DNA from: Clostridiales bacterium
Lineage (GTDB): Bacteria > Bacillota > Clostridia > Lachnospirales > WRAX01
Direction: 5' to 3'
Length of the DNA stretch: 42,691 nucleotides
Assembly: GCA_031277225.1 (NCBI GenBank)
Contig: JAITMQ010000094.1
Coordinates: 1-42,691 of the forward strand
Made by a program: the position numbers and the translations under genes. Below the pieces are notes generated by a model that worked only from the letters and a program-made list of their open reading frames with translations, was not told where the DNA came from and searched no databases. Shown one piece after another: positions 38,210 to 42,691 of the stretch. Every line of letters starts with the position of its first letter. The first letter of the stretch is position 1.

Positions 38210-39280
38210 CGGCCCTGTGGGGCGAATTATGAATTATGAATTATGAATTATTTTGTCGGCGAAGCTGTGCGGTCTGCGAAATTTTCGTGTTTTTCGTGCT
38301 TTTCGTGGTTGAAAGATTGAACCACGAAAAGCACGAAAGGCACGAAAATGTGCCTAAGTTTTTCGGCAACGCTCCCCGAATTCGACCGTCATTCCCGCGA
38401 AAGCGGGAATCTCCATCGGCGGGTGGTCGACCTTGTGGGTTGAATGATGAATTATGAATTACGAATTATGAATTATTTTGTCGGCGAAGCCGTGGGCAAC
38501 ATGCGTTGCGCTGCTGTCGCTCGTCATTCCCGCGAAAGCGGGAATCCCCTGCCGGCGGGTTGTCGGCCTTGTGGCCGAATTATGAATTACGAATTATGAA
38601 TTATTTTGTCGGCGAAGCTGTGGGCGCATTGCGCGCCCCGCATGGGCGGCCTGAAGGCCGCCTCCGGATTGTAGATAGTGCGCGGTGCTACGCACCGGCT
38701 TAAGCCGTAAGCCAGACCGAAGGTCTGCGCACGGCGGAATGTTGGCAATGCGGAATTTCGTGCTTTTCGTGGTTGAAAGATTGAACCACGAAAAGCACGA
38801 AAGGCACGAAAATGTGCTTAAGTTTTTTGGCAACGCTCCCCGAATTCGACCGTCATTCCCGCGAAAGCGGGAATCCCCTGCCGGGTGGTCGGCCTTGTGG
38901 GGCGAATTATGAATTATTTTGTCGGTGAAGCGATGGGCGCATTGTGCGCCCGCATGGGCGGCCTAAAGGCCGCCTTCGGGTTGTAGATAGGGCGCGGTGC
39001 TACGCATCGGCTCAAGCCGTAAGCCAGACCGAAGGTCTGCGCACGGCGGAATGTCGGCAATGTGGAATGTGGAATGTGGAATTATTTTGTCGGCGAAGCC
39101 GTGCGCAACATACGTTGCGCTGCTGTCGCTCGTCATTCCCGCGAAAGCGGGAATCCCCTGCCGAGTTGTCGGCCCTGTGGGGCGAATTACGAATTACGAA
39201 TTATGAATTATTTTGTCGGCGAAGCCGTGGGTGCATTGCGCGCCCGCATGTCAAACTGTTCTAGTATTGTGATTGGGCTG
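38210..39280. repeat. array of composite intergenic repeat cassettes (palindrome, heptamers, TTTCGTG inverted repeats)
   Basis: four GTCATTCCCGCGAAAGCGGGAATC copies at 38388, 38523, 38852 and 39132; (ATGAATT)n; TTTTGTCGGCGAAGC(T/C)GTG repeated. Confidence 0.88.
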
Positions 39281-39352: not shown

Positions 39353-41164
39353 TCAGTTAAGCACTATCGCTTTTGTTGTGCCGTTTAGTATGCCTTTGTT
39401 GTATTCCATTTCTTGGTAGAAGGCTCTGCAACGGACTCTTCTGCCATTTTTATCTATTTGGAACATATTATTGTCGCCCAGGTCGCGCGCGGGGTCTTGC
39501 CGCCAATTCGCCTTAACAAAAACCAAATTCCGCAGCAGATTAAATTTGCGCTCTAAAAACCAGTCCCGCACGGATTGAATATGCACGGCATTGGCTATAA
39601 ACATCGGCAAATCAACCACATATGGCTTTTCGACCTCATTGGTCTGCTTCCATGGCGCGGGATAAAATTCTTTTGTGGTGAGCATTGACACCCGCCAGCC
39701 GCGCACCTGCACGGAACAACGCCCATTGCCCATCAGCCGCGCCTCTAAATACATGGTGTGGCGGCGAATATTGCTTATTGAAAAGCCGTGCGTAACCGTT
39801 ACATTCGCATCCCCCCAAATCGGCGAATCATAAGGAATCACAATGTCCAAAGTTCCCGCAACGCTGAACTCTACATTGGCCAAAACCCCGTCGGTCAAGG
39901 AAATCAGGTGCTCGCTTAATGTGATTCCGTTATAATAATCGCTTTGGGTTGCTTCGGGCGGCGCAAAACTGTTTTCAAAGTCAATATCGCCCTTTAGCTC
40001 GCCTTGATGAATCGAAAATAAGTCTATGAAATGTATAGTGCCGTCGCGGGCCTCATGAATCATGCACGAACTAAGTTCCGCCAATTGCGCAAGGGCCGCC
40101 CTGTGGCTAATATTGCCCGTAAAGCCCGGAAAGCGCGGATAAGTATTCATAACATGCGGCACAACCACATTTATTCCCGCATCAAGTGCTATGCGCCGCG
40201 CCAAATCGCCCATATGTTCCAGCGGAAAACGGCTGTTCATAAAAATCGAGCTATCCAAAAATTTAGAGCGGCTATGCGCCACAAGCTCTACGCTTTCGTT
40301 GTTTACAGACCATTTGTCCAAAAAATATCCCGCATAATTTGTCCAAAACATGGGATTGCTTTGATTTGGAAAGCGGATTCCGTGGGCATATTCGATTTGG
40401 CAGCCCTGCTCTAAAAGCGGCAAAAGGCCACTTCCCGGGTTTAGCACATTAAAACGCCCCTTATTGGCAAGTTTAACCTGCATTTGATTATAGGGCAGGC
40501 CTCGCCCCTCGGGGTCGCCTTCATGAATGGTGTTAATATTCAAAATATCCTCATCATCAAAGACGGTTACGCGCCCGAAATGCACTTCGGCAACGCGTGC
40601 AAGGCGAAAGCCGCGGCTCATTGTTATTATCTGAATCTGCAGTCTTACTAAATTATTGAAATTATTGAGTGCTGCGCTTCCGTCGGGTGCAAGAGTTACT
40701 ATACCTCCGCCAACGCTTCCCCCCGATGCGTTAAAGCCTGTAATAGCAACCCTTCTGACATAGTTATCTGCATTGCGGTCGGAAACTATAGTAACCATGG
40801 ATACATCCCTGGGGGTTGGGAAGTGTATATTGAGAATCGGCCTGTTTGCGGCGGCGGCCCATTGTCCATTGCTATCACAGGCCAGCCTTGACACAAAACC
40901 CACCTCAAGCCGATTTGAACCGGCAACGGGTAGCATAAAACTGCCGTCAAGCCGCCAAAAATCGGGCTCTAATGTGGCAATTTTGCCGCTTGTGTGGCTT
41001 CTGCCGTTAAGCACCTGTGAAACCTGTGAGAATACCGCTTGATGGGCGGCTGTGGCGGTTACCGTTGCCCCCGACTTAATTCCCGCCCCGCCCGCAATAT
41101 AAGTAATCAAAGCCGAATTTTCCCTTAATGCTCTTCTATCGTTCAATGAATTCACAGCTGACAT
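39353..41164 (-). CDS. phage-like structural protein (tail/baseplate-type, provisional)
   Basis: ~600-aa ORF starting MSAVNSLNDRRALRENSALITYIAGGAG; paired with a small phage-like ORF; no definitive motif. Confidence 0.5.
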   Translation of the reverse strand: MSAVNSLNDRRALRENSALITYIAGGAGIKSGATVTATAAHQAVFSQVSQVLNGRSHTSGKIATLEPDFWRLDGSFMLPVAGSNRLEVGFVSRLACDSNGQWAAAANRPILNIHFPTPRDVSMVTIVSDRNADNYVRRVAITGFNASGGSVGGGIVTLAPDGSAALNNFNNLVRLQIQIITMSRGFRLARVAEVHFGRVTVFDDEDILNINTIHEGDPEGRGLPYNQMQVKLANKGRFNVLNPGSGLLPLLEQGCQIEYAHGIRFPNQSNPMFWTNYAGYFLDKWSVNNESVELVAHSRSKFLDSSIFMNSRFPLEHMGDLARRIALDAGINVVVPHVMNTYPRFPGFTGNISHRAALAQLAELSSCMIHEARDGTIHFIDLFSIHQGELKGDIDFENSFAPPEATQSDYYNGITLSEHLISLTDGVLANVEFSVAGTLDIVIPYDSPIWGDANVTVTHGFSISNIRRHTMYLEARLMGNGRCSVQVRGWRVSMLTTKEFYPAPWKQTNEVEKPYVVDLPMFIANAVHIQSVRDWFLERKFNLLRNLVFVKANWRQDPARDLGDNNMFQIDKNGRRVRCRAFYQEMEYNKGILNGTTKAIVLN

Positions 41165-41480
41165 CCCTCCACCACAGCCCGCCCGACACAAAGGCAATGC
41201 GCCCCGAGCCCGGACGGACATACATCATTGACCTGACCGTATTGTCTGTTCGCGGGTCAAAATATTCCAGTTCAACAAAAACGGGCGATGTGCCGCGAAC
41301 CAGGCGGCCGTAATCCTCGCCGCTCATCATTTTCCAGCCTGCGGTTACAACAGACTTAACCGCCACCAAATCCCCAACCAAATTGCCATTGGCGTTGCGC
41401 TCAAATTCGCCAATATTTTCAAAACCAACCGAATAACTGTCAGGGGCCAAAAACTCCGCCCCATTAATCCGAATCCTCAT
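41136..41480 (-). CDS. small phage-like protein (DUF6711-like, provisional)
   Basis: MRIRINGAEFLAPDSYSVGFENIGEFERNANGNLVGDLVAVKSVVTAGWKMMSGEDYGRL. Confidence 0.5.
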   Translation of the reverse strand: MRIRINGAEFLAPDSYSVGFENIGEFERNANGNLVGDLVAVKSVVTAGWKMMSGEDYGRLVRGTSPVFVELEYFDPRTDNTVRSMMYVRPGSGRIAFVSGGLWWRDVSCEFIER

Positions 41481-41511: not shown

Positions 41512-41540
41512 TTGACATAGGTGCAGGCCTATGTTATAAT
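41512..41540 (+). promoter_or_regulatory. perfect consensus promoter TTGACA-N17-TATAAT with internal palindrome ACATAGG-N6-CCTATGT
   Basis: TTGACA 41512-41517, TATAAT 41535-41540; palindrome fills the spacer. Confidence 0.88.
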
Positions 41541-41546
41541 GGATGT

Positions 41547-41712
41547 ATAGGAAAACTTTTCTTGCTGTGAATACGCTAACCGTCGGCGTGGTAAATTGAC
41601 GGTTCGATTGAATACGCTCACCGCCAAGCGTGATAAATAGGCGGTTCGACTGAATACGCTTACCGTCGGCGTGATATAGGCGGTTTGAAGAAGCCCTTCG
41701 AGGGCTTTTTTT
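41547..41712 (+). ncRNA. structured RNA: three tandem H-type pseudoknot repeats plus terminator; type III antitoxin-like
   Basis: repeats at 41568-41608, 41609-41650 and 41651-41689 with TGAATACGCTnACCGYC...RGCGTG...GRCGGTTYGA; compensatory S2 change GUC/GAC to GCC/GGC. Confidence 0.7.
41691..41712 (+). terminator. intrinsic terminator AAGCCCT-TCG-AGGGCTT-TTTTT
   Basis: perfect 7-bp stem followed by T tract 41706-41712. Confidence 0.88.
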
Positions 41713-41752
41713 CCGGGTATATCGGCTTTTGACATCAATTTTGACGCGACTG

Positions 41753-41804
41753 ACGCTTCTGTTCACAGAAGCGTAACGCCGAGGTGAACCTCGGCGTGGT
41801 TTTT
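41753..41804 (+). other. twin 9-bp hairpins with mutually complementary loops, followed by T5
   Basis: ACGCTTCTG-TTCA-CAGAAGCGT and ACGCCGAGG-TGAA-CCTCGGCGT then GGTTTTT. Confidence 0.7.
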
Positions 41805-41809
41805 GCGGT

Positions 41810-42691
41810 CAAGCCTAATGTGGCGCAGGGCTATGCTCCGTCTATATGCCGAAGCCAGAGCGCAGCTCTGCGCACCCTCGCAGTATAAACATCGGATGTT
41901 GCCAATAGCAAGGGATTCCCGCTTTTGCGGGAATGACGGGAAGCAGTTCACAAGAATGTCATTCCGCGCTTGACCCCGCATTAAGTGCAGGGTAGGTGCG
42001 GAATCCCCCCGTTTGTTCATCCTTTGGATGAAATGATAAATGATGAATGAAAAGTCCGAAGCCTCAAGCTTTTGAACTTAATTCGTAATTCATAATTCAT
42101 AATTCCGCGCCGCAGGGTCGGACAAGTGGGGGATTCCCGCTTTTGCGGGAATGACGGCCCTCTAATTTCTAGTTTCTAGTCCCCTTCCTCGCCCTAACCT
42201 CACCCTAAACCACCCAACAGCCCTATATGGCGCAGAGCTGCATCATAAACAGCGGATGCTGCCAATAGCAAGGGATTCCCGCTTTCGCGGGAATGACGGG
42301 AAGCTACTTGCAAGAACGTCATTCCGCGCTTGACGCGGAATCCCCTACGGTTTGCGGATGTTGCCAATAGCAAGGGATTCCCGCTTTCGCGGGAATGACG
42401 GCCATCTGGCCTCTGGCATCTAATTTCTAGTTTCTAGTTTCTAGTTCCCCTCCTCACCCTAAACCACCCAACAGCCCTATGCGGCGCAGAGCTACGCTCT
42501 TGCTATATGCCGAAGCCAGAGCGTAGCTCTGCGCACCCCCCCGCAGTCTAAACAGCGGATGCTGCCAACAGCAGGGGATTCCCGCTTTCGCGGGAATGAC
42601 GGGAAGCAGTTCACAAGAACGTCATTCCGCACTTAGGTTCAGCCACGGCTGAAGCCTTGGATGAAATGATGAATAAAAAGCCCAAAACCAC
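41810..42691. repeat. composite repeat array, palindromes in opposite orientation to the 38-39 kb array
   Basis: GGGATTCCCGCTTT(T/C)GCGGGAATGAC at 41912, 42129, 42272, 42374 and 42573; GCGCAGAGCTACGCTC...GAGCGTAGCTCTGCGCACC; (TTTCTAG)n. Confidence 0.88.

Follow-up and report, generated by a model that had tools for sequence, protein, structure and literature searches.

The window analysed here is a stretch of 42,691 nucleotides, near the end of which lie three tandem repeats in front of a terminator. They raise two questions: whether they encode the antitoxin RNA of a type III toxin–antitoxin system and, if so, what has become of the toxin. The array is almost certainly a CptI-type (type III) antitoxin RNA. 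The best explanation, which is considered probable, is a stand-alone CptI-type antitoxin gene left behind after loss of its cognate CptN toxin gene.

Structure of the array and its flanking signals

The features of the locus are listed below (S, stem; L, loop).

39353–41221, minus strand: gene of a 622-aa phage protein (phrog_13879), a tail-module neighbour
41136–41480, minus strand: gene of a 114-aa phage protein (phrog_1194), divergent from the array; adjoins the tape measure gene in relatives
41512–41540, plus strand: predicted sigma-70 promoter, TTGACA-17-TATAAT with TG before the -10, 12/12 consensus
41568–41607, plus strand: antitoxin unit 1 (geometry scan, CM match); S1 41573–41577/41585–41589, L1 41578, S2 41579–41584/41598–41603, L3 GGUAAAUU, tail UCGA
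41608–41649, plus strand: antitoxin unit 2 (geometry scan, CM match); S1 41614–41618/41627–41631, L1 41619, S2 41620–41625/41640–41645, L2 41626, L3 GAUAAAUA, tail UCGA
41650–41688, plus strand: antitoxin unit 3 (geometry scan, CM match); S1 41656–41660/41668–41672, L1 41661, S2 41662–41667/41679–41684, L3 GAUAUA, tail UUGA
41687–41711, plus strand: predicted intrinsic terminator, a hairpin with a U-run, -13.3 kcal/mol, z -3.6
41713–41815, plus strand: 3' flank with two hairpins, 94% common to contig C62, which carries a second orphan array

The array consists of three tandem H-type pseudoknot units at 41568–41688 (+). All 33 of the 33 stem pairs are standard, and Watson-Crick pairs account for 10/11, 11/11 and 9/11 of them in units 1, 2 and 3. 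The original prediction described three repeats with crossing stems, and an independent geometry scan (S1 5 bp, L1 1 nt, S2 6 bp, L2 0–1, L3 6–10) returned exactly the same coordinates, with pseudoknots starting at 41573, 41614 and 41656. It also described a compensatory change in stem 2 between repeats 1 and 2, which is upheld among the window units. A single pseudoknot of this geometry is common by chance, there being 19 in the whole window versus approximately 11 per dinucleotide-shuffled window (both strands), and shape alone is therefore insufficient. What places the array beyond chance is that three pseudoknots lie in register within 120 nt, together with the compensatory change and the conservation and covariation seen elsewhere.

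The repeats, of about 40 nt (n=3), fall within the range of ~35–45 nt that defines type III membership. As the unit starts are 41 and 42 nt apart and the last unit is 39 nt, no single coding frame runs across the units. A minus-strand coding reading of the array was rejected because the unit lengths break frame, and the minus-strand ORFs were judged spurious.

A promoter before the array and a terminator after it are both predicted from the sequence. Transcription is expected to start near 41547. Sigma-70 sites with a 12/12 match were found in 1 in 60 shuffled windows, and the real window has three besides the array promoter. The terminator, which had been claimed earlier to follow the repeats, is borne out by the hairpin listed above; a consensus terminator scanner did not call it, the likely reason being that its stem extends into the T-run. 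The 5' leader hairpin is weak (z -0.9). A palindromic operator in the promoter spacer (ATAGG...CCTAT) was considered and dropped, as the copy of the array on C62 is without it.

The two hairpins of the 3' flank belong to a dispersed repeat (ACGCTTCTGTTCACAGAAGCGT / ACGCCGAGGTGAACCTCGGCGT), which is at 41746–41803 in the window and lies behind both orphan arrays. In the same genome (G000), it also occurs away from arrays, at C20:7361–7417 and C75:10347–10398. Dense dispersed intergenic repeats, for example GGGATTCCCGCTTTCGCGGGAATGACGG, occupy positions 41900–42691 and 38236–39264 of the window.

Homologous arrays and covariation of the stems

The window belongs to a MAG of 2.16 Mb in 177 contigs, which is 94.6% complete. 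Here, the array has one paralogue, a two-unit array without toxin at C62:611–715. The segment common to both begins ~20 bp ahead of the promoter and ends ~105 bp beyond the terminator. In C62, one unit has been removed in register, fusing units 2 and 3, and the array is down one further stem pair relative to complete pairing. Its promoter hexamers are identical, and its terminator stem is retained with a changed loop. Of the stem substitutions, 4/5 keep pairing; an argument for selection from these was set aside, as the numbers are too small.

Homologues also exist outside this genome. Three homologous units were found in G005, a member of the same family. A covariance model built from 14 units (R1) was used to search 392 genomes of the order and 392 of the class, and this yielded more arrays in G108, G150, G208, G583 and G728. 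Two more came from a scan of named genomes with the toxin: Roe453 (Oscillospiraceae) and UBA1036 (Ruminococcaceae; contig partly masked). The covariance model and genome search proposed with the original prediction uncovered homologous arrays, six of them toxin-linked and the others toxin-less. Matches to the model in G100 and G069 lie within coding sequence, seem to be due to chance and were discarded. G005, G108 and G150 are MAGs labelled Defluviitaleaceae, and the 'Emb/Lab' sample names suggest termite gut.

The crossing stems are conserved in these homologues. In 14 units (three from the window and 11 from four other arrays), 95.5% of stem cells are paired, versus 29–45% in slid controls, and 16 cells are changed on both sides versus 5.9 when shuffled. 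Further support came from 23 units, in which both stems covary: 238/253 cells are paired versus 218.5 ± 3.2 when the 3' arms are re-dealt among units (2000 trials, maximum 228). The first pair of S1 is seen as A-U, U-A and C-G, and each of the S2 pairs 2–6 takes at least two Watson-Crick forms. The loosely kept pairs, S2 outermost and S1 innermost, are next to loops. Across units, L1 consists of one nt and the long loop resembles GAUAAAUU. The tails of window units 1 and 2 are UCGA, while toxin-linked units have UUGA and UBA1036 has UAGA.

A CptN-type toxin lies downstream of homologous arrays

Repeats homologous to those of the window precede a CptN gene in five genomes. Array, terminator and toxin gene follow one another directly and in that order in G005, G150, Roe453 and G583, whereas in G108 the array is 1.1 kb upstream of the toxin, with a 315-aa ORF between them. 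The partly masked UBA1036 contig shows the same array-toxin association. The ORF in G108, where array and toxin gene occupy L052 844–2588 (C32), weakly resembles a nucleoside deoxyribosyltransferase, the match falling short of the Pfam cut-off.

One toxin subfamily is downstream of all linked arrays, its members sharing 58–75% identity with the one in G005. Against NCBIfam CptIN, the G005 toxin gives 1.5e-15 and 57 bits, which is below the 90-bit cut-off; in sequence it also matches the CptN of PDB 4RMO, at 4.7e-9. When its predicted fold (pLDDT 72.6) was searched, 4RMO ranked first at 9.4e-5 and was the only match below 0.001; the next, CcdB, was at 0.33. CptN (4RMO) is the only confident match of the relatives' toxin in PDB by sequence and fold, and the homologous toxins are assigned to CptN by NCBIfam, PDB and predicted fold. 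A Pfam search of the toxin gave no match. In addition, the Clostridioides phage pCD1602_4 (CP069348.1; L127 2340–2971) has a CptN-like gene that lacks annotation; its product shares 39% identity with the G005 toxin, and a different repeat array of its own precedes it.

The CptIN system of Eubacterium rectale (4RMO) provides the closest comparison. There, L1 of CptI is one base, the long loop is A-rich and cleavage occurs 3' of an A at the ...GGGUUGA end (PMC4627078, PMC5086642). Killing and rescue by this CptIN have been assayed in laboratory E. coli (PMC4627078). The window units likewise have, in their predicted fold, an L1 of 1 nt and an A-rich, GAUAAAUA-like long loop, and share the H-type pseudoknot and the unit end ...GGUU(Y)GA. 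The toxin-linked relatives have tandem repeats of ~40–45 nt upstream of a terminator and toxin, and this toxin is related in fold and sequence. The differences are that the window repeats are of other sequence and without toxin, and that the toxin of the relatives forms a divergent subfamily which scores under the NCBIfam CptIN cut-off. Membership of ToxIN was not indicated: the best ToxN (PF13958) match in the own genome had 11 bits and E 0.46, below cut-off.

The earlier reading of the locus as the CptI-like half of a toxin–antitoxin pair is therefore supported, as homologous arrays precede a terminator and CptN-type toxin genes. The toxin-linked homologues, the CptN match and the covarying crossing stems together place the window array in a divergent CptIN subfamily. 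Homology and structure were established by computation, as was the absence of the toxin considered below. A search of the locus against Rfam at the gathering score and at E 5 found nothing relevant, and blastn against phages gave two chance matches only. The absence of an Rfam family at gathering score would suit a regulatory RNA repurposed from an antitoxin, or repeats unrelated to toxin-antitoxin systems. Either is highly improbable, however, because arrays next to CptN genes have homologous repeats in the same orientation and a homologous terminator.

Absence of the toxin from the window array

In a complete cptIN locus, CptN is directly downstream of the array, and this is not the case in the window. 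The earlier statement that no plus-strand ORF of at least 60 aa follows the array holds to the contig end, and no toxin fragment was found behind it at E 10. The toxin subfamily of the window repeats had no match in the own-genome assembly by protein, family or profile search, so the description of the array as an orphan stands.

The own genome's sole CptN, on C172, scores 199 bits and is associated with a different repeat. This canonical cptIN (L006 1260–1890) has a promoter and a pseudoknot-capable repeat of ~1.2 copies, and lies upstream of a sequence that by eye looks tRNA-like. It resembles the other systems in having a promoter and pseudoknot-capable repeat upstream of CptN; it differs in the repeat itself and in its CptN, which is only 27–29% identical to the toxin subfamily of the window repeats. 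Given this identity and the specificity of CptI (PMC4627078), cross-neutralisation with the window RNA is not expected.

The cognate CptN could also sit in the unassembled part of the genome and act in trans, so that the array would not be an orphan. The MAG is fragmented and short of completeness, as given above, and the array and toxin of G108 are ~1.1 kb apart, both of which leave room for this idea. Against it, protein, family and profile searches found no subfamily match and all known copies are linked in cis, and it is judged very unlikely.

Loss of the toxin is the more natural reading, and a route to it is visible in G208. Relative to G150, this genome is 88% identical over the promoter, three units, terminator, ribosome-binding site and ~8 toxin codons. 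The alignment then jumps ~875 bp to the end of a downstream kinase-like gene, with a short common ATTC at the junction, and G208 is absent from the genomes with a CptIN match. The sequence thus shows how toxin deletion could give rise to orphan arrays. In G728, a lone array of one unit has a mismatched stem, and no toxin is nearby. In all, toxin-less arrays turned up in three genomes in the RNA-first search (G000, which has two, G208 and G728), versus six that are toxin-linked.

It is likely that the window array was orphaned by toxin loss. The proposal of a toxin-loss remnant has a parallel in the G208 deletion; the window array itself shows no toxin scar, and the loss is deduced from homology and from G208.

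A prophage remnant beside the array

The array promoter starts 32 bp from two phage genes, which in relatives come after the tape measure gene. These genes, encoding the 114-aa and 622-aa proteins, are all that is left of a tail module near the array. Homologues of the 622-aa protein are present in 9/15 other genomes of the family, in several cases as part of a fuller tail module. In G005, cptIN adjoins tail and head-connector genes, and the contig is a provirus that IMG/VR also lists as a viral genome. The two loci differ in their position within the module and need not stem from a single ancestral insertion. A decaying prophage with cptIN would lose the toxin before the antitoxin, and the context of the array fits this.

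The same context is compatible with a prophage-borne decoy, also raised in the original prediction, that would block the abortive infection of a host CptIN. An established case of a phage mimicking a type III antitoxin is phiTE, whose pseudo-ToxI acts against ToxIN (PMC3475682), and the proximity of tail-module genes to both the window promoter and the G005 cptIN points the same way. Both the pseudo-ToxI and the window array are type III antitoxin repeats without a toxin. In contrast, the former belongs to the ToxI family, is carried by a phage and has been shown to act through expansion, whereas the latter is CptI-type and chromosomal, with its own predicted promoter and terminator and a candidate function. 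Moreover, the only viral record with these repeats is the G005 provirus contig, which includes the toxin; no toxin-less viral copy was found, and the C62 array has no adjacent phage genes on the part of the contig read. A decoy is regarded as unlikely.

Proposed function and present state of the array

For a stand-alone antitoxin gene that has lost its toxin, we infer the following course of transcription, processing, binding and present function. The promoter would give rise to an RNA of ~165 nt with three ~40-nt units, each folding as an H-type pseudoknot in which loop 1 is one nt and loop 3 is A-rich. Ancestrally, the CptN RNase would have cut the precursor 3' of the A in each UUGA/UCGA tail, a site predicted by analogy with E. 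rectale CptI (PMC4627078), and the resulting pseudoknots would have held CptN inactive. With the toxin gone, the RNA would be left without a partner in its own genome. Should a cognate cptIN arrive on a prophage or other element, the RNA would bind its CptN and blunt addiction or abortive infection.

The evidence tilts slightly towards an array that continues to be expressed and can neutralise a cognate CptN. A more tentative proposal is that toxin-less CptI arrays may be a class of immunity RNA, kept to neutralise CptN from incoming cptIN elements, whether against addiction or against abortive infection. Cells or prophages would then retain the promoter-array-terminator cassette, which here is duplicated; this extension is equally tentative.

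Alternatively, the array may be a non-functional relic that outlived the toxin and is now drifting, which is a plausible reading somewhat short of an even chance. Its logic is that loss of the antitoxin is harmful before toxin loss and harmless after. Retained immunity and relic share a common origin and differ in present state. Decay is apparent in the mismatched single unit of G728, in the unit and pair lost from C62 and in the reduction of the adjoining prophage to two genes. On the other side are the complete pairing of the window array, its 12/12 promoter and strong terminator, which are consistent with selection but no proof of it, and the presence of the toxin-less segment twice, both times with perfect promoter hexamers and terminator stems. 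By a rough estimate, however, neutral drift would often leave such features intact too, and the two own-genome arrays differ at too few stem sites for purifying selection to be demonstrable.

If toxin-less arrays are expressed and protective, they would do at the RNA level what protein antitoxins do against addiction, and would account for the loss of cptIN or for resistance to it. Orphan type II antitoxins and anti-addiction modules are alike in being toxin-less antitoxins that could protect from an incoming toxin, but these are proteins whereas the window antitoxin is an RNA. Type III surveys, as outlined in PMC5086642, proceed from the toxin protein to the upstream repeats, and since they start from the toxin, toxin-less arrays would go unlisted. 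The RNA-first search brought up such arrays, one of them (G208) with its deletion junction visible. No report of orphan type III antitoxins was found in an unspecific literature search, which equated 'ToxIN' with 'toxin' and did not take in the 2012 classification paper.

A separate two-unit, pseudoknot-like array with an A/T-rich terminator was noticed in G328 (C2:727240–727350; L083 ~740–850) and G330 (C48; L084), neither of which is listed with a CptIN match. The stem 2 of its first unit pairs poorly. It lies between a serine recombinase and a two-gene operon, the second gene of which looks GNAT-like by eye, and it may be a further type III-like orphan antitoxin carried by a mobile element.
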